Source: Longimicrobium sp. (GTDB lineage Bacteria; Gemmatimonadota; Gemmatimonadetes; Longimicrobiales; Longimicrobiaceae). From it: a stretch of 47,365 nucleotides of DNA. Made by a program: the position numbers and the translations under genes. Position 1 is the first letter of the stretch. The number at the start of each line of letters is the position of its first letter. The stretch spans positions 1 through 47,365 of the forward strand of contig DASVWD010000019.1 in assembly GCA_036389795.1 (NCBI GenBank). Reading direction: 5' to 3'. The notes under the pieces are model-generated. The model worked only from the letters and a program-made list of their open reading frames with translations. It was not told where the DNA came from and made no database searches. Positions 240 to 44,251 of this stretch are shown here, one piece after another.

Positions 240-852
240 GTAACCTCTCTGGTTCCCAACGCAAGAGCCGTGGCAGCTCGTCGCGCGCAGCGCCGGAGTC
301 CCTCCCCTGAAGTTCGGGGGAGGGACAGGCGCGCCAGGCGCCAGGGCGGGGGCTGCCCGCCGCCGCGCCGAAGCCGGTCGAAGCGGCAGACCCCGTCCCC
401 ACCCGTCGCGCGCAGCCCCGTGCGCGAGGTCGCTGAGCCACTGACGGTGTTCCAGGGACCGCAGGCCGAATTCGACACGGGTGAGCCTTGACCCGAGACA
501 TAGTTGCGGCTCCTTGGGGCACGAGGCGTCGTCAGGCGAGTGCTGGTGGATGCGATACGTGTCCGCCGGCGCTCTTCCGCGAGGGAGAAAGTGGACTTGC
601 ACGGCTCGAGTGCGCCGACGAGTTGTCGCGGCGGGACGATGGGAGCGACAGATATAGCCGCTGGCGTGATGGGGGCGCCTTGGAGCCGAAAAAATTTCCT
701 TTACTCCCACTCCACCAGTTGCGTACCTTGTCCAGCTGCGAGCTGCCGGTTCACCGGTGCGTTGAAATCCACGGAGCGGTTCGGTCGGCGTGGTTCTGCA
801 CGTACCGGAAAATTCATGTGTCAACACACCGTTCATTCCATCGAGGTGCTCA
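240..852. other. 613-bp gap without a convincing gene
   Basis: Open frames exist on both strands but are products of high GC: none has a recognisable domain or good ribosome site. The left part holds one copy of the dispersed hairpin repeat (279-390). The right part, about 640-850, is less GC-rich and probably contains the promoter of the AAA+ gene, but no clear -35/-10 pair could be singled out. Confidence 0.5.
279..390 (+). repeat. Dispersed ~105-bp hairpin repeat, copy 1
   Basis: This segment recurs at 12297-12404 in inverted orientation and at 27616-27722 in direct orientation. Its core is a perfect stem, GTCCCTCCCC pairing with GGGGAGGGAC around a short TGAAGTTC-type loop (about 299-327), followed by GGCGCGCCAGGCGCC, a G-rich run, and a CCGCCGCGCCGAAGCCGGTCG-like end. 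All three copies are intergenic. Confidence 0.85.
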
Positions 853-3603
853 ATGGACTCCGCTCCCGCCAGAAATGAGACGAAGAAGAACTCGGCGTTC
901 GTTCCCGGGGTCCTCGTGCTGGGGGACGTGCAGGTGGACGTGGTGGTCGCACCCCTCCCCCTGAAGTACCGTCCCCGCCCCGCTGGGGGCGAAAAGGCCG
1001 AGACGGCCGGGCCCGCATCCGGCGGTGCGGATGTGCGGCCGAGAAGTGGCCCGGAGGGGGAAGGTGCAGCCCTCGCCGCCCCGGCCGCGCCCGCGGGGAC
1101 CGGCGACGCTGCCGACGCCGGGGGGGCCGGCGCCGCGTACGGGGGCGAAGCTGCGCAGGCGGGCGTGGCTGGCGCGGCCTCCGACACCGCGGCCGGCCAC
1201 GGGGGGGCGCGCCGGCACAACTGGCAGAAGGCGCCGCAATACTGGGTGTTCCGCCGTCCCGGTGGAGCCTGGCTGCTGTGCAAGGTGGTGAGGGCCGCGG
1301 TCGGCCCGGGGATCCAGGTCAAGACGGCGGGCGAGGCCGAAGGGGAAGACTATCCGAAGCAGCTGACTGCGTCTTGCCCGGTGTCGCTCGCCACGCTGCG
1401 CGCATTCCCCCTGAAGGTGTCGAAAGAGCCGAAGGAGGACGACCCGCTGGCGTATCGGATCGCGGGCGATTCGCTCAGCGGCTGGCTTCGCCACATGCTC
1501 CCCGGGCCGCCGGTGGGCGACAGGACCGACGAGTTCGACCGGGCGATGCGCGAGCACCTGAAGAAGCTCTCCTCCGACCCGTCGCGCCCAGTGGCCGACC
1601 TGCTGGTACTGCACGACCACAACAACGGCTTCCGCGACATTCCCACGGAGGAGTCGGTCGCTCCGTTCGTGGACCCCGAGCTCTTCCCCGGGTCCGCAGG
1701 AGGCCGCCGCGGGGTGATCCTGCTCCACAGCGACGCTCCGCTCGCGGAGGGACCGCTCTGGAAGTTCCTCTTCGACGATCACCCGGCCTACCGCGACCGA
1801 CTGGTGGTGGTGGTGAACGCCGAGGACCTGCGGACCTGGGGCGTCACGCTGGTGGACGACATCTCGCTCGAGCGGACGGTGGCTGACTTCATGTACAACC
1901 TGGAGCGCGCGGGGCCGCGCGGGCCGCTGGCGAAGCTCGCGCAGTGCCGCTGCGTGGTGGTGCGGTCGCAGCTGGGCCTGATCGTCCTCTTCCGCCACCC
2001 GGCGGTGGGCACGAGCCGGGTGAACATCTCCTTCCTTCCGTTCGCGATCACCGGACCCGGCTCCGACCCCGGCCGCTACGGCAAGATGGTGGGCTACTCG
2101 GTGGTCCTGGTTGCGGCGCTCGCGAAGGGGATCTGCTGGGCGTTGTCGCGCTCCGTCGACGACTCAGCGGAGTTCGAGCGCAGGCTGGACGCGGGGATCA
2201 GGTTCGGGGCGCACCTAGGACTGGCGCTCAGCGAGGAGCACCTGCGGAAGGGGTTCATCCAGATCAGGCCCGGCGATCCGCTCCCGGAGGAAAAGGAGCT
2301 CGACCCGTACGGCGCTCTCTTCAAAGAGATAGGCCCCACGCTCTCGGCCACGGCGGAGAGCGGCGTTCCGCCCACCCCGGCGGCGAAGGGGAAGGATGCG
2401 GGCCGCAAGGAATGGGACAAGGACTTCCGCATCGCCTCGGTCGACTTTGATCCGCAAACGCTGGGGGGGATGGAAGCGTGGAGCCGCGTGCAGGTGCTCC
2501 CCGGGCTGGCCGGCTGGGGCACCGTCGAGGCAGCGGCCATCGACGTGGTGAGGTACGGGCTCAAAGAGGTGGTTGCCATGGCGGCGGGCCTCGCCTCGTC
2601 GCGGCGGGAGAGCGCGGGGAACGGCACCGAGCCCGCCCCCTCACCCCGTCCCGGGCTGGACCAGCCGGACTGGGCTCTCCCGGACCGGCTCCCGTTTCCG
2701 TTCGCCACCATCGGCAAGCTGACGCTGGTGGACCGCGACGAGATCGACAGTTTCTCGCACGTCGAGAGACTGGTCCTGAAATATCTCAGGGACAACAACT
2801 GGAAGCGTCCGCTCTCCATCGCGGTCTTCGGCCCGCCAGGATCGGGAAAGTCCTTCACGGTCAAGCAGATCATGAAGAACGCCCTGGGCAGCGAGGAACT
2901 GGAGCCGCTCGAGTTCAACCTCTCGCAGTTCCAGGTCCTGGACGACCTCTCCGACGCGTTTCACCAGGTGCAGGACCGAGCTCTCGCCATGAAGGGAGCG
3001 CCGCTGGTCTTCTTCGACGAGTTCGACACCACCTTCGGAGGGGAGCCGCTGGGCTGGCTCAAGTACTTCCTGGCGCCGATGCAGGACGGCACCTTCCGCG
3101 GCAGGCATCACATCTTCCGGGTCCCCCGGGCCATCTTCGTCTTCGCGGGCGGGATCTGCCACACCTTCCACCACTTCTACGGGATCCAGCGGGAGAGGAA
3201 GGAGTTCCGTGATGCCAAGGGCCCTGATTTCGTGAGTCGGCTGCGCGGACATCTGGACATCCCGGGAATCAACGGCGAGCACGGGGTGAGCGAGCTGCTG
3301 ACCGTCCGCCGCGCTATCCTGTTGCGCGTGTTCCTGGAGGATATCTGCCCCGCGATCATCGACCCGCACACGAAGAGGGCAAACATCGATACCGGCGTGG
3401 TGCGCGCGTTCCTGCTCACCCGCAAGTACGAGCACGGGGTCCGCTCCATGGAGGCGATCGTGCAGATGGCCACCGTCTCACTCTCGCGGCGGAAGTTCCA
3501 GCGCTCCTCGGTTCCCGCGGCCCCCCAGCTCGCCATGCACGTGGATGCGGAGGAGTTCCTGCAGTACCTGGACGACCCGAATCCGGAGAGCACCTGGGAC
3601 TGA
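853..3603 (+). CDS. Large AAA+ ATPase with ribokinase-like N-terminal region
   Basis: A 916-residue protein. The C-terminal third is an AAA+ ATPase: Walker A G-P-P-G-S-G-K-S at about 660-667 and Walker B P-L-V-F-F-D-E-F-D at about 717-725, followed by an arginine-rich lid region. The first ~460 residues look like a PfkB/ribokinase-type Rossmann fold: V-L-V-L-G-D-V-Q-V-D near the start, a G-G-A motif near residue 137, a V-V-V-V-N-A-E-D-L-R strand, and a late G-x-x-V-G-Y-S helix. A low-complexity Gly/Ala/Glu stretch (about 45-115) separates the first strand from the rest. ATG at 853 was chosen because GAGGTG lies five bases upstream. No partner gene follows; a 165-bp gap leads to unrelated genes. 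Possible roles in defence or signalling are guesses; only the domain types are visible. Confidence 0.7.
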   Translation: MDSAPARNETKKNSAFVPGVLVLGDVQVDVVVAPLPLKYRPRPAGGEKAETAGPASGGADVRPRSGPEGEGAALAAPAAPAGTGDAADAGGAGAAYGGEAAQAGVAGAASDTAAGHGGARRHNWQKAPQYWVFRRPGGAWLLCKVVRAAVGPGIQVKTAGEAEGEDYPKQLTASCPVSLATLRAFPLKVSKEPKEDDPLAYRIAGDSLSGWLRHMLPGPPVGDRTDEFDRAMREHLKKLSSDPSRPVADLLVLHDHNNGFRDIPTEESVAPFVDPELFPGSAGGRRGVILLHSDAPLAEGPLWKFLFDDHPAYRDRLVVVVNAEDLRTWGVTLVDDISLERTVADFMYNLERAGPRGPLAKLAQCRCVVVRSQLGLIVLFRHPAVGTSRVNISFLPFAITGPGSDPGRYGKMVGYSVVLVAALAKGICWALSRSVDDSAEFERRLDAGIRFGAHLGLALSEEHLRKGFIQIRPGDPLPEEKELDPYGALFKEIGPTLSATAESGVPPTPAAKGKDAGRKEWDKDFRIASVDFDPQTLGGMEAWSRVQVLPGLAGWGTVEAAAIDVVRYGLKEVVAMAAGLASSRRESAGNGTEPAPSPRPGLDQPDWALPDRLPFPFATIGKLTLVDRDEIDSFSHVERLVLKYLRDNNWKRPLSIAVFGPPGSGKSFTVKQIMKNALGSEELEPLEFNLSQFQVLDDLSDAFHQVQDRALAMKGAPLVFFDEFDTTFGGEPLGWLKYFLAPMQDGTFRGRHHIFRVPRAIFVFAGGICHTFHHFYGIQRERKEFRDAKGPDFVSRLRGHLDIPGINGEHGVSELLTVRRAILLRVFLEDICPAIIDPHTKRANIDTGVVRAFLLTRKYEHGVRSMEAIVQMATVSLSRRKFQRSSVPAAPQLAMHVDAEEFLQYLDDPNPESTWD

Positions 3604-36003: not shown

Positions 36004-36945
36004 TCATGCTGGAGGACGATGTACGCCAGAGATCGTCCAGCGCAGGCCGGTCTTCGGCGGGCCGTGGGGGGAGCCGCCGAAGTGCTCCTCGAAGTGCCTG
36101 CCCAGGTCCGGGCGCGAGCCGTCGACGTCGGTGAAGCCGTACTCGCGCGCCAGGCCCCACGAGCTGTACAGGCCGCCCGACTTCTCCAGCACCCGCGGGT
36201 CCGCGGCCAGCGCGGCCACCGCCCGGCCGACGAAGAAGGGCGTCTCGGAGGCCAGGAAGGCGGGGTCCTTCTTCGCCCCCTCGCGCCAGTTCTCCTCCGT
36301 CACGCCGAAGAGGTCGAGCGCGTACTCGGTGCGCATGTAGCCGGGGGTGAGTGCCACGGCCGCCACCCCGCGCGGGCGCAGCTCCTCCGCCATCGCCCAG
36401 GCCAGGCGGGACACGGTGACCTTCACCAGGTCGTAGAAGAGGGTGCCGCGGTAGTCGAGCGTGTCGCCGTCGCCGATCTCCACGATCAGCCCGCGGCCGG
36501 CCTCGACCATCAGCGGCGCGGCGTGGCGGCTGGCGATCACGTGCGTCTGGATCCCCTGCCGCAGCGCCTGGAACCCCAGGTCCAGCGAGAGCTGCCAGAA
36601 CGGCTTCCACTCGTGGACGACGCCCTCGGAGATGTCGTTGACCAGCACGTCCAGCCGCCCCTGCTCGCGCCGCACGCGGTCGAACAGCGCCGCCACCTCC
36701 TCCTCCACCAGGTGGTCGACGCGGACGGGGATGCCTTCGCCGCCGCGCGCGGCGACCATCTCCGCCGTCTCCTCGATCGTCTCCGGGCGGCCGGCGTAGA
36801 CGCCCGCGGCCGGCGGGCTCCCGCGCACGCTGCGCCCGGTGCAGTAGACGGTGGCGCCCGCCTCGCCCAGCATGCAGGCGATCCCCCGGCCGGCCCCGCG
36901 CGTGGCGCCGGCGACGACGGCGACCTGTCCCTCCAGTGGCCGCAT
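36004..36945 (-). CDS. SDR-family oxidoreductase, paralogue A
   Basis: A 313-residue short-chain dehydrogenase. G-A-T-R-G-A-G at 13-19 is the cofactor loop. Tyr171-x3-Lys175 is present (F-Y-D-L-V-K), but the serine usually 13 residues earlier appears to be Gly/Asp (E-I-G-D-G-D), and N-N-A-G is N-D-I-S. The C-terminal E-Y-G-F-T-D-V-D-G-x-R-P segment is shared with its neighbour. GGGAGGAGAGG lies before the ATG. It is the second of two tandem minus-strand SDRs, about 55% alike by eye in the first 100 residues. Activity may be reduced. Confidence 0.82.
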   Translation of the reverse strand: MRPLEGQVAVVAGATRGAGRGIACMLGEAGATVYCTGRSVRGSPPAAGVYAGRPETIEETAEMVAARGGEGIPVRVDHLVEEEVAALFDRVRREQGRLDVLVNDISEGVVHEWKPFWQLSLDLGFQALRQGIQTHVIASRHAAPLMVEAGRGLIVEIGDGDTLDYRGTLFYDLVKVTVSRLAWAMAEELRPRGVAAVALTPGYMRTEYALDLFGVTEENWREGAKKDPAFLASETPFFVGRAVAALAADPRVLEKSGGLYSSWGLAREYGFTDVDGSRPDLGRHFEEHFGGSPHGPPKTGLRWTISGVHRPPA

Positions 36946-36972
36946 CCTCTCCTCCCCGGGTCGGTCAAACCC

Positions 36973-37065
36973 AAGTGCTTAGTGTTTTAGTGCTTAGTCC
37001 TTAGTGCAAAGGTCGAGGATCGCTCCGAGGCCACTCAGCACTAAGGACTAAGGACTAACACACTG
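36973..37065. repeat. Inverted pair of heptamer arrays (AGTGCTT / ACTAAGG)
   Basis: Left arm 36973-37012 repeats AGTGCTT/AGTCCTT with 7-8-base period; right arm 37031-37065 repeats ACTAAGG/ACTAACA. The arms are complementary and flank an 18-base spacer, between the two SDR genes. Confidence 0.8.
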
Positions 37066-37073
37066 CCGTGCCG

Positions 37074-38153
37074 CTACCGGAGCTGCTCGAAGCGCTGGTA
37101 GAAGTCCGCCGCCAGGCGCTTCGGGTCGCCGTAGACCAGCTCCAGCATCGAGAGCTCCTGCCGGAGCCAGCGCGGCGGGTCGCCGTTGGCCGAGAGCCGG
37201 GCGCGCAGCGTGTGACTCGCCGGATCTTCCTCGACGACGGCCGCGGGGTCGAGCCCGTGCTTCTCGAACTCCTTCCGCACGCGGGCCGCGATCTTTCCCC
37301 ACCGCTCCTCGAGGGTGGGCGCCATGAAGCGCTCCCAGTGCGGCCGCGCGCCGTCCACGTCGGTGAAGCCGTACTCCTCGGCCAGCTCCCACGACTTGAG
37401 CGTCGTCCCCGTCTTCAGCATCACCCGCCGGTCGGCGGCGAGCGCGGCCACGGCGCGGCCCACGTAGAAGGGCGTCTCGCTGCTGGCGAAGTAGGGGTCC
37501 TTCGCCACCGCGTCGCGCCAGTTCTCCTCGGTGACGCCCCAGTGCTCCAGCACCGCCTCCGAGCGCAGGTACCCGGGGGTGACGGCGACGACCGCCACGT
37601 CGTGCGGGCGCAGCTCGGGCGCCAGCAGCTCGGCCATGCGCATCACCGACTGCTTCTCGAGGCCGTGGAAGAAGCTCATCGCGCCGAGGTCGGTGATCCC
37701 GGCCACGAGCCCGCCGCCCCCGCCGTCCAGCATGAGCGGGAGGGCGGCGTGGGTGGTGATGAGGTGCGAGTGCACCCCGCGCTCGATCAGCTGCAGGCCC
37801 CTGTCGAGCGACTGCTTCCAGAACGGCTTGCTCCAGTCCGCCAGGTCGTCGCCGTTGACGTTGTTGACCAGCACGTCCAGGCGCCCCTGCTCCCGCGCGA
37901 CGCGGTCGAACAGCGCGCGCACCTGCTCGCGGTCGGTGTGGTCCGTCCGCGCGGCGATGCCGGTGCCGCCGTGGCTCGTCACCATCTCCGCCGTGTCGTC
38001 GATCGTCTCCGGCCGCCCCGACGTCGCCCCCCGCACGCTGCGCCCGGTGCAGTAGACCGTCGCCCCCGCCTCGCCCAGCATGCACGCGATCCCGCGCCCC
38101 GCCCCCCGCGTCGCCCCCGCGACCACGGCGACCCTGCCCTCCAGCGCTCCCAT
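37074..38153 (-). CDS. SDR-family protein, paralogue B, catalytic tyrosine lost
   Basis: A 359-residue protein. The first 50 residues are nearly the same as in paralogue A, with the G-A-T-R-G-A-G loop at 13-19 and N-N-V-N in place of N-N-A-G. Where Tyr-x3-Lys is expected it reads H163-G-L-E-K167 (S-F-F-H-G-L-E-K), so the catalytic tyrosine is missing. A C-terminal extension of about 80 residues (R-V-R-K-E-F-E-K-H-G and a tail rich in Arg/Leu) is absent in A. AGGAGG precedes the ATG. Divergent from the tetR gene, which likely regulates it. Possibly a cofactor-binding protein rather than an enzyme. Confidence 0.8.
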   Translation of the reverse strand: MGALEGRVAVVAGATRGAGRGIACMLGEAGATVYCTGRSVRGATSGRPETIDDTAEMVTSHGGTGIAARTDHTDREQVRALFDRVAREQGRLDVLVNNVNGDDLADWSKPFWKQSLDRGLQLIERGVHSHLITTHAALPLMLDGGGGGLVAGITDLGAMSFFHGLEKQSVMRMAELLAPELRPHDVAVVAVTPGYLRSEAVLEHWGVTEENWRDAVAKDPYFASSETPFYVGRAVAALAADRRVMLKTGTTLKSWELAEEYGFTDVDGARPHWERFMAPTLEERWGKIAARVRKEFEKHGLDPAAVVEEDPASHTLRARLSANGDPPRWLRQELSMLELVYGDPKRLAADFYQRFEQLR

Positions 38154-41183: not shown

Positions 41184-43346
41184 TCACAGCCGCGCCCGCC
41201 GCAGGAGCTGTGCGTTGATCGCCACGATCACCGTGCTGAGCGACATCAGCACGGCGCCGACGGCGGGGGAGAGGACCAGGCCCCAGCGCGACGCCACGCC
41301 CGCCGCCAGCGGGATCGCGACGATGTTGTAGCCGGCCGCCCACCACAGGTTCTGCACCATCTTGCGGTAGGTGGCCTTCGACAGCTCCACGATGCGCGGC
41401 ACGTCGCGCGGGTCGCTCCGCACCAGCACCACGTCGCCCGCCTCCACCGCCACGTCGGTCCCCGCGCCGATCGCCACGCCCACGTCGGCGGTGAGCAGGG
41501 CGGGGGCGTCGTTCACCCCGTCGCCCACCATCGCCACGCGCTTCCCGCGCGCCTGGATCTCGCGGATTTTGTCGGCCTTGTCGCCCGGGAGCACCTCGGC
41601 GAAGACGGTGTCGATCCCCAGCTCGCGCGCTACCGAGTCCGCCACGGCTCGCGAGTCGCCGGTGAGCATCACCACCTCGATCCCGTTCTCGTGCAGCCGC
41701 CGCACCGCCTCGGCAGACTCGGGGCGCACCGCATCGGCGGTGGCGAAGGCGGCCAGGACGCGGCCCCCCTCCACCAGGAAGACCGCCGAGCGTCCAGCCT
41801 CGGCGGCGCGAGCCGCCGCCTGCGCGAGCAGGGGAGGCGGCTCGATCCCCTCCCGCCGCAGCAGGTTCGGCCCGCCCACCAGCAGCTCGCGCCCGTCCAC
41901 CCGCGCCCGCGCGCCGTGGCCGGGGATCGCCTCGAAGCCGTCCGACGCGGGGACGGCGAGGCCGCGCTCCTCCGCGCTCTTCACGATGGCGCGCGCCACC
42001 GGGTGCTCGGAGTCGCGCTCCACGGCCGCCGCCAGCCGCAGCGCATCGCCTTCGGGCAGGCCGTCCGCGGCGACGGCGACCACGCGGTGCTCGCCCAGGG
42101 TGAGGGTGCCCGTCTTGTCGAAGACGACGGCCTGGAGGCTCCGCGCCTCCTCCAGCCCGCGGCGGTTGCGCACCAGCAGCCCGCCGCGCGCGCCCAGCGT
42201 GGTCGAGATCGCCACCACGAGGGGGACGGCCAGCCCCAGCGCGTGCGGGCAGGCGATCACCAGCACGGTGACCATGCGCTCCACGGCGAAGGCGGGGTTG
42301 GCGCGCAGCAGCAGCCAGGCGGCGAGCGTCACCGCTCCGGCCGCGATGGCCACGATGGTGAGGAAGAGCGCCGCGCGGTCCGCCAGCGCCTGGGCGCGCG
42401 AGCGCGAGGTCTGCGCCTGCTCCACCAGGCGCATGATCCCCGCGAGCGTGGTGCGCTCGCCCGTCCCCGTCACCTCCACGCGCAGCGAGCCCTCGCCGTT
42501 CACCGTCCCGGCGATCACCCGCTCGCCCGGCGATTTACGCACCGGCCGCGACTCGCCGGTGATCATCGCCTCGTTCACCGAGCTCTCGCCCGAGGCCACC
42601 GTCCCGTCGGCGGGGACGCCCGCGCCGGGGCGCACCAGCACCACGTCGCCTTCCTTCAACTCCGAGATGGGCACCTCCTCGGTGCGGCCGCCCGCCACGC
42701 GGACGGCGGTGTCGGGGAGCAGCTTCGCCAGCTCGTGGAGCGCGCCCTGGGCCTGGGAGATGGAGCGCATCTCGATCCAGTGGCCCAGCACCATGATGGT
42801 GACCAGCGTCGCCAGCTCTTCCCACAGCGGCATCCCGGGGAATCCCAGCGTCACCGCCGCGCTGAACACGAAGGCGACGGTGATGGCCAGCGAGATCAGC
42901 GTCATCATCCCCGGCAGCCGGTCCTTCAGCTCGTGGACGGCGCCCCGGAGGAAGACGACCCCGCCGTAGAGGAAGACGGCCGTGCCGAAGACGGGCGGGA
43001 TCCACTCCGAGCCGGGGAAGCGCGGCGGCATCCACCCGGTGAGCCGCATCAGCATGTGCCCCCACACCACGGTGGGGATGGTCAGCAGGAGGGTGATCCA
43101 GAACCTGTCCCGGAACATCTCCACGCTGTGCCCGGCGTGCTTGTCGTGCCCGCCGTGCCCCGCGTGCGCGCCGTGGCCGCCGTGCGCGTCGTGCGCGGTC
43201 TCGAGACGATGGCCGGCGTGTCCGGCGTGCTCCATCCGCGGCCCCGGCAGGTGCCCGCCCTCGTGCGGGACCTCGGGGTGCTCCGGGTAGCCGGGCTCGA
43301 CGGGCGGCTCGGGCTTGCCGTGGTGGTGATGATGATGATTATCCAT
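41184..43346 (-). CDS. Copper-type P1B ATPase (CopB-like) with His-rich N-terminus
   Basis: A 720-residue metal pump. The first ~75 residues are rich in His and Gly: six histidines in a row at 4-9, then repeats of H-A-G-H and H-G-G-H, a likely metal-binding tail. Helices follow; the metal-site helix has A-C-P-H-A-L (CPH, near residue 366), typical of CopB (P1B-3) pumps for Cu or Ag. The phosphorylation site is D-K-T-G-T-L-T (about 410), with T-G-E-S in the actuator domain, H-P-V-A-R in the nucleotide domain and G-D-G-V-N-D-A-P-A late. The start ATG overlaps the RES toxin stop by one base (TGATG), so it is in the same operon. No copper regulator is near. Confidence 0.94.
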   Translation of the reverse strand: MDNHHHHHHGKPEPPVEPGYPEHPEVPHEGGHLPGPRMEHAGHAGHRLETAHDAHGGHGAHAGHGGHDKHAGHSVEMFRDRFWITLLLTIPTVVWGHMLMRLTGWMPPRFPGSEWIPPVFGTAVFLYGGVVFLRGAVHELKDRLPGMMTLISLAITVAFVFSAAVTLGFPGMPLWEELATLVTIMVLGHWIEMRSISQAQGALHELAKLLPDTAVRVAGGRTEEVPISELKEGDVVLVRPGAGVPADGTVASGESSVNEAMITGESRPVRKSPGERVIAGTVNGEGSLRVEVTGTGERTTLAGIMRLVEQAQTSRSRAQALADRAALFLTIVAIAAGAVTLAAWLLLRANPAFAVERMVTVLVIACPHALGLAVPLVVAISTTLGARGGLLVRNRRGLEEARSLQAVVFDKTGTLTLGEHRVVAVAADGLPEGDALRLAAAVERDSEHPVARAIVKSAEERGLAVPASDGFEAIPGHGARARVDGRELLVGGPNLLRREGIEPPPLLAQAAARAAEAGRSAVFLVEGGRVLAAFATADAVRPESAEAVRRLHENGIEVVMLTGDSRAVADSVARELGIDTVFAEVLPGDKADKIREIQARGKRVAMVGDGVNDAPALLTADVGVAIGAGTDVAVEAGDVVLVRSDPRDVPRIVELSKATYRKMVQNLWWAAGYNIVAIPLAAGVASRWGLVLSPAVGAVLMSLSTVIVAINAQLLRRARL

Positions 43347-43798
43347 CAGCGGCCAGGACGGAGTCTGGGGTCGAACTGGAACGGCTGCCGGTCGACGATC
43401 CGTACTGTCACGGCGAGGGGATGCATCGGGTCGATCAGCACGTTCGTGCTTTCGGGCAGAACCGCGCAAGGGACGGCGAGAGCGAGGCTGCGCACCTGGT
43501 CGAGCCACTGGTCGCCGATCGCGCGCGTATAGCCGATGTCGGTCTTCCAGCCGTCCTTGAGCAGAGCGGGATCGAGGCGCTCGATGTCGTGCTCCTCGAT
43601 GGACAGCTTGTAGGCGACGTAGTCGCGCGGAAGCGGGCCGGTGATGTGCACCAGGCACTCGGCCAGGCAGACTGCGAGAGACTCGGAGGCGTAAACGAGC
43701 GGGCGGCCCGGGGAATTCCACCGGCCGCCCGCGATCCTCGCCCCCTCGCCCGTGAGCGGCGGATAGCGCCCGCTGGCCAGGCGCCAGACGTACGTCAC
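43346..43798 (-). CDS. RES-domain toxin
   Basis: A 150-residue RES protein. V-W-R-L-A, G-G-R-W-N-S-P-G-R-P-L-V-Y-A-S-E-S-L-A-V-C-L-A-E and later D-Q-W-L have the family's R-x-S-E core. RES toxins break down NAD+ and are held off by Xre partners such as MbcA. Start is GTG at 43798, overlapping the Xre stop (GTGA). The stop overlaps the next gene's ATG. Length is normal. Middle gene of the operon xre-res-copB. Confidence 0.9.
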   Translation of the reverse strand: MTYVWRLASGRYPPLTGEGARIAGGRWNSPGRPLVYASESLAVCLAECLVHITGPLPRDYVAYKLSIEEHDIERLDPALLKDGWKTDIGYTRAIGDQWLDQVRSLALAVPCAVLPESTNVLIDPMHPLAVTVRIVDRQPFQFDPRLRPGR

Positions 43799-44220
43799 TC
43801 GTACACGCCGTGCTCGATGCGGACAAGCACGGTCTCGACCAGCTGCGCCCCGCTTCCGGTACGGAGGAGACGAAGCGGGACTTCGTGGTCCAGGGCGGGG
43901 TTGCGGGTCAGCAGCCAGTCACGCGCTACATCGGGGTCACCGAAAACCCGCTGGGCGAGAACGAAGATCGCGGCCATCCGCGCGACGCGGTCGGACTGCT
44001 CCGGTGTGAGCGTCTGGACGTTGCGCAGGCTCGTGAGGGTCCGCCGCGGGATCACCTCCGACAGGTCCGCGTCGGACAGCCCGCTGAAGTGCTTGAGCTG
44101 GCGGATCGCCCCACGGGGAAGCCCCCGCTCGATCCGCTGCACGAACGACGGCCCGGTGCGGATCTCGTCTCCCAGCACGGCGGTGCCGCCGAGGGCGTTC
44201 GCGGTCTCGTACCATTCCAT
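43795..44220 (-). CDS. Xre/MbcA/ParS-type antitoxin
   Basis: A 141-residue antitoxin. The N-terminal half has a Xre-type helical DNA-binding region (L-K-H-F-S-G-L-S-D-A-D-L-S-E-V-I-P-R-R-T-L); the C-terminal half has the MbcA/ParS toxin-binding domain (A-Q-R-V-F-G-D-P-D-V-A-R-D-W-L, then N-P-A-L, P-L-R-L-L-R-T, and V-L-V-R-I-E-H-G-V-Y). ATG at 44220 has GAGGAGGAAGG before it; an upstream ATG at 44250 lacks one. The gene starts the operon with RES and a copper pump. Self-control through the operator at 44258 is likely. Confidence 0.9.
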   Translation of the reverse strand: MEWYETANALGGTAVLGDEIRTGPSFVQRIERGLPRGAIRQLKHFSGLSDADLSEVIPRRTLTSLRNVQTLTPEQSDRVARMAAIFVLAQRVFGDPDVARDWLLTRNPALDHEVPLRLLRTGSGAQLVETVLVRIEHGVYE

Positions 44221-44251
44221 GGCCTTCCTCCTCTGCGGCAAGTCTGCCATC

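Follow-up and report, generated by a model that had tools for sequence, protein, structure and literature searches.

A gene near the start of a 47,365-nucleotide stretch of Longimicrobium sp. DNA (the window) encodes a protein in which a ribokinase-fold domain lacking the PfkB GxGD motif is joined to a complete AAA+ module, and it belongs to a family of more than 260 relatives in genomes of many phyla, whose members usually end in a RyR domain and in part adjoin SLOG or TrkA_N-RyR genes. The family membership and the folds of the window protein are well supported. The best explanation available, which is offered tentatively, is that the protein is a AAA+ switch gated by an ADP-ribose-type nucleotide, under the control of a degenerate ribokinase-fold sensor and derived from a conflict-like signalling module, possibly one for stress or antiviral responses.

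The open reading frame runs from an ATG at 853 to a stop codon at 3601-3603 and specifies 916 residues; an upstream GTG at 790 is a possible alternative start, and the sequence GAGGTG fits the ATG at 853 (Table 1). It is coding and not a chance frame because its GC content by codon position is 0.70/0.48/0.89 and it has homologues down to E 1e-95. The window apparently opens at the edge of its contig (C19 from base 1), so the upstream context of the gene amounts to 852 bp. A UPF0175-type putative antitoxin gene lies within it, in agreement with the earlier note, made from the sequence alone, which had placed the gene beside toxin-antitoxin remains. It is listed here as a neighbour of the 853-3603 gene, to which a functional tie would be putative; a toxin encoded with it would have to be outside the window. 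Elsewhere in the window, a reverse-strand frame at ~43795-44230 resembles an Xre/ParS (DUF2384)-type antitoxin by eye, a heavy-metal P-type ATPase at 41184-43826 (-) has a very His-rich N-terminal region (HHHHHH and repeated HAGH), and two similar SDR-type genes lie in tandem at 36004-38153 (-), a likely duplication.

Table 1. Features of the pseudo-ribokinase-AAA+ gene and its neighbour in the window.
Feature	Coordinates	Strand	Basis
Gene, pseudo-ribokinase-AAA+ protein, 916 aa	853..3603	+	Homologues, coding periodicity
Candidate Shine-Dalgarno GAGGTG just 5' of ATG 853	843..848	+	Sequence, inference
Ribokinase/PfkB-fold domain, residues 17-506	901..2370	+	AF2 model, VIA Z up to 19.8, Foldseek HldA/ribokinase
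Disordered Ala/Gly-rich insert, residues 45-122	985..1218	+	pLDDT ~30, alignment gaps, GC by codon position
Probable PfkB GxGD site, residues 410-418 GKMVGYSVV	2080..2106	+	Catalytic Asp absent (Y415)
Partly disordered linker, residues 507-611	2371..2685	+	AF2 model
AAA+ module, residues 612-910	2686..3582	+	PF00004, ClpA D2 Z 16.1 over 618-910, Foldseek sigma54 activators and ClpB
Walker A, residues 660-667 GPPGSGKS	2830..2853	+	G660, P662, G665, K666 and S667 invariant in 57 members
Walker B, residues 718-725 LVFFDEFD	3004..3027	+	D722, E723, F724 and D725 invariant in 57 members
Probable arginine finger R796 (DFVSRLRG)	3238..3240	+	Invariant in 57 members
UPF0175-type putative antitoxin, 62 aa, by contig edge	54..239	-	PF03683 E 7e-19, model positions 20-75 of 75

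The AF2 model of the window protein, built on 57 family sequences (mean pLDDT 77, pTM 0.80), gives the N-terminal domain a ribokinase fold. The fold matches returned by VIA were filled by ribokinases, with no other fold type in the list (Giardia ribokinase, Z 19.8 over 291 residues at 4.2 A; pseudouridine kinases, Z 19.1-19.8; LacC, Z 18.9), and Foldseek matched HldA and ribokinase. The earlier note had read this region as a sugar-kinase-type Rossmann part with a low-complexity insert, and both descriptions agree with the model, in which the fold is kinase-like and the Ala/Gly-rich insert is disordered (pLDDT about 30); the insert also has weak codon periodicity and falls in alignment gaps, being missing from the family consensus. 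Pfam picks up only the AAA part of the protein, with no sequence match to PfkB (PF00294), and since the profile-profile comparison of the N-domain with PfkB proteins of the same genome was weak, the assignment of the kinase fold rests on structure. The domain therefore shares with ribokinase and pseudouridine kinase of the PfkB family a fold (Z 19-20), but the protein differs from these kinases in lacking the PF00294 match and the GxGD motif and in being fused to a AAA+ module. All family members lack the motif where it would be expected; at position 415, where the equivalent helix begins, the counts give Y, L, I, T, S, N, M or F and neither D nor E. We infer from the family-wide absence of GxGD and the non-acidic position 415 that phosphorylation has been lost, and the domain is probably a non-catalytic, ligand-binding sensor. 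The window protein has itself diverged, as the Thr in place of E400, a residue near the GxGD site conserved in 55/57 members, is a sign; it also departs at the conserved sensor position W339, which is Leu.

The remainder of the protein is the full AAA+ module that the earlier note had described, with PF00004 above cut-off and a VIA match to ClpA D2; the nearest Foldseek matches were sigma54 activators and ClpB. Walker A, Walker B and the probable arginine finger, a role which we take R796 to have from general AAA+ knowledge, are all kept and are invariant in the 57 members, and ATP hydrolysis by the module is expected on the strength of this invariance. For the STAND NTPases the matches were sub-threshold (PF25199, E 0.003), and the general AAA model scored higher. 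PADLOC, NCBIfam and PHROGs gave only weak P-loop cross-matches for the window protein, and the PADLOC 2.0 defence models had no match in two homologues or in the SLOG and TrkA partners tested.

A search of reference genomes with the single protein returned nothing, while a three-row alignment (A1) retrieved 266 relatives, of which 80 loci were kept; two plasmid relatives and a contig that is listed as viral but looks plasmid-like were found besides. Bacillota, Chloroflexota, Acidobacteriota, Planctomycetota, Verrucomicrobiota, Bacteroidota, Myxococcota and archaea are represented among the kept loci. The combination of domains, which had been called unusual, is thus that of a whole family and not unique to the window. 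The distribution is patchy: no full-length counterpart was present among 60 close relatives or 120 genomes drawn from the phylum, and a phage collection contained no match. Parts of the family are surely already in databases as 'RyR domain-containing protein'. A literature search found no description of the pseudo-ribokinase-AAA+-RyR architecture or of its SLOG/TrkA-RyR neighbourhood, an earlier account being possible, and no experiment on any family member.

The usual architecture is [pseudo-PfkB]-[AAA+]-[RyR], with a C-terminal RyR domain in 73/83 homologues. Pfam PF02026 (RyR) was detected in 46/57 homologues scanned, and the family profile matched animal RyR R12 domains at E 2e-29, so the suggested comparison with RyR-associated AAA proteins proved apt. 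The window protein itself has no PF02026 match and only a 13-residue tail after the AAA core. No RyR domain was found elsewhere in its own genome, a result that is weak evidence as control genomes in the same search gave no signal. The window protein clusters with two other RyR-less proteins, one from Prosthecobacter (L067) and one from a contig in IMG/VR (L085), and the support for this branch, 99/75, is only moderate. RyR-lessness also appears elsewhere in the family tree, and two further RyR-less homologues (L012 and L014) run off their contigs. Among near-identical archaeal orthologues, one of the pair L024 and L029 has RyR and the other ends right after the AAA core, suggesting recent RyR loss or a frameshift. 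Directly upstream of the Prosthecobacter relative is a 1213-aa KaiC-like ATPase (L067:5004-8645). The IMG/VR contig is listed as viral and L085 was considered as a phage-borne copy, which was rejected because the contig (L085:1-20906) looks plasmid-like; relaxase-, TraG/VirD4 coupling-protein-, ParB- and ArdC-like proteins are seen by eye and it is probably a plasmid or conjugative element. A second mobile relative, the PF02026 protein WP_264051538.1 of Methylobacterium plasmid pA, has the same pseudo-PfkB and AAA+ core (tblastn pieces average 38% identity) and, unlike the window protein, ends in RyR (E 1e-14); it lies near a SIR2-TPR gene, whose 2082-aa product (L002:1774-8022) is encoded amid transposase genes.

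Phage RyR-domain proteins (RyDEP) bind or cleave 2'/3'cADPR via H75, W78, H100 and D117 (2026 preprint, PMC13232231), and the equivalent residues are kept in family RyR domains in 56/59, 52/59, 35/59 and 37/59 cases, respectively. The homologues of the window protein share with RyDEP the RyR domain and most ligand residues; however, RyDEP serves the phage in counter-defence, as an enzyme or sponge, whereas in the bacterial proteins the domain is joined to pseudokinase and AAA+ modules. The catalytic Asp (the D117 equivalent) is often missing in Clostridial members, which would fit sensing over cleavage.

Gene neighbourhoods were compared over 77 loci with enough flank. In 23/77 of them a gene for a ~190-aa SLOG protein adjoins the family gene and shares its strand; most often it comes right downstream, usually within ~25 nt (median distance 5 nt). 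A TM-TrkA_N-RyR gene adjoins in 17 loci (in L054, Pfam TrkA_N E 3e-18 and RyR E 3e-13). Furthermore, DUF4062-motif STAND-type proteins are concentrated near the family gene, with nine within 6 kb and one farther away (DUF4062 E 1.5e-12 in the L064 neighbour). About two thirds of loci, Clostridia included, have neither a SLOG nor a TrkA-RyR neighbour. The TM-TrkA_N-RyR protein of L054 (7672-9504) and its relatives resemble RCK-gated channels, although by eye they seem to lack the canonical TVGYG filter. Four loci have the SLOG partner in fusion with membrane segments (L037:4157-6391, L049:12432-14165, L053:11751-13682 and L080:501-2378), and among the three scanned SLATT (PF18181) scored above cut-off in L037 and below cut-off in L049 and L080; SMODS/SLOG-associated SLATT 2TM effectors are thus represented as a SLOG fusion in a relative's locus (L037), whereas no SLATT effector gene was seen in the window. 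Two SLOG-like copies appear ahead of the membrane part of the L037 fusion. In Heliobacteriaceae (L081:1186-3942), SLOG stands in place of RyR at the C-terminus of a pseudo-PfkB-AAA protein, a fusion that directly links the SLOG and pseudo-PfkB-AAA partners.

SLOG domains are predicted or known sensors or processors of ADP-ribose signals (PMC9503650). The model of the SLOG partner (pLDDT 90) matches YpsA at Z 17.5, DprA at ~12, TRPM2 at ~8 and the SLOG of ThsA with 3'cADPR at 6.9. It shares the general fold of the Thoeris ThsA SLOG, a cADPR sensor (7uxs; Foldseek E 3e-4), but fits YpsA far better; YpsA is not known as a defence protein. Binding of an ADP-ribose-type ligand by the family is predicted from RyR and SLOG homology. 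A mechanism can be proposed in which the RyR domain would sense a nucleotide of the ADP-ribose type (an isomer of cADPR or a related molecule), perhaps with help from the pseudo-ribokinase domain, while SLOG might make, process or trim, or read the signal. The natural ligands of ribokinase are ribose and ADP, which together resemble ADP-ribose, and for this reason the pseudo-ribokinase domain is a possible co-sensor. Ligand binding would switch the AAA+ ring so that a partner is remodelled, and membrane proteins (TM-TrkA_N-RyR and SLOG-SLATT) could deliver the output as growth arrest or an abortive-infection-like defence. For the window protein and its RyR-less branch, the pseudo-ribokinase domain would be the sole sensor.

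The RyR sensor and the partners have either been lost from the window copy or were never part of it. Neither a SLOG nor a TM-TrkA_N-RyR partner was found in the window or in genome searches, and no Thoeris pair (TIR ThsB and SIR2-SLOG ThsA) was seen around the gene among the window ORFs. A SLOG match on contig C276 was rejected as a missing partner because it looks like a more distant SLOG protein, as was a TrkA match on C191 that looks like an ordinary TrkA ion channel. The earlier claim of a gene without partners is true of this copy but not of other genomes, which often have the SLOG and TrkA_N-RyR genes, and its standing alone in the window has to be read against just 852 bp of upstream sequence. 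Because RyR and partners are absent, the case for nucleotide signalling is weakest for the window gene. Its product could be a solo sensor-ATPase that relies on the pseudo-ribokinase by itself or could act with partners encoded at unlinked sites, or the gene could be in decay. Given the missing RyR and partners, E400T, W339L and the large insert, the protein may drift or do something else.

The nucleotide-gated switch has to be weighed against a housekeeping or metabolic regulator, in which the ribokinase fold would detect a sugar or nucleoside metabolite, and the AAA+ module would serve as chaperone, enzyme activase or transcription-type ATPase with no link to defence. The best fold matches, pseudouridine kinase and ribokinase, would suit such a protein, as would the Foldseek proximity of its AAA part to sigma54 activators and ClpB and the many Clostridia and Pelosinus that carry the gene without SLOG or TrkA-RyR partners. 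The patchy distribution speaks against it, as does the recurrence of SLOG, RyR-TrkA and DUF4062-STAND partners across phyla, the only neighbours to recur so widely; no constant housekeeping or metabolic neighbour was found across genera, and flanking genes are otherwise common only to close species. A regulator of this kind is considered rather unlikely. That the domain is instead a working kinase for nucleosides or sugars, its active site divergent and its C-terminal partner the AAA+ module, is highly improbable: the full ribokinase fold and the good conservation of G24-D25 (D in 56/57) and of G137 in the GG motif are in its favour, but no member has GxGD at the expected place, the residues counted where the equivalent helix starts include none that is acidic, and the window protein has Thr for the nearby E400.

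For the window copy specifically, a horizontally acquired relic that has shed RyR and partners and is drifting would account for the position at a contig edge by a short UPF0175 gene, the low-complexity insert, the changes at positions that other members conserve (E400T, for example) and the failure to find partners. Its frame of 916 codons is nevertheless intact with strong third-position GC, all AAA+ motifs are kept, and its grouping with RyR-less L067 and L085 (99/75) implies that proteins without RyR may persist stably; decay is considered improbable. Returning to the nucleotide-gated switch, the earlier suggestion of a protein that senses a nucleotide or sugar and drives a conformational output, for example in defence, survives as a sensor-plus-AAA+ reading, while defence is suggested only by the family's neighbours. 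A bolder proposal is doubtful at present: an undescribed immune system of bacteria and archaea that makes or reads ADP-ribose-type signals, built from the pseudo-ribokinase-AAA+-RyR proteins together with their SLOG and RyR-TrkA_N membrane partners, and with the pseudo-ribokinase as receptor in the RyR-less branch.

Phages use RyR-domain proteins against cADPR signals (PMC13232231). The present family, spread over many phyla and present in archaea too, combines RyR with a conserved AAA+ motor and a sensor that is probably a dead kinase. SLOG joins them in a subset, and both RyR and SLOG are folds of which some members bind cADPR. The window gene is a natural RyR-minus variant with which the role of the pseudokinase could be isolated.
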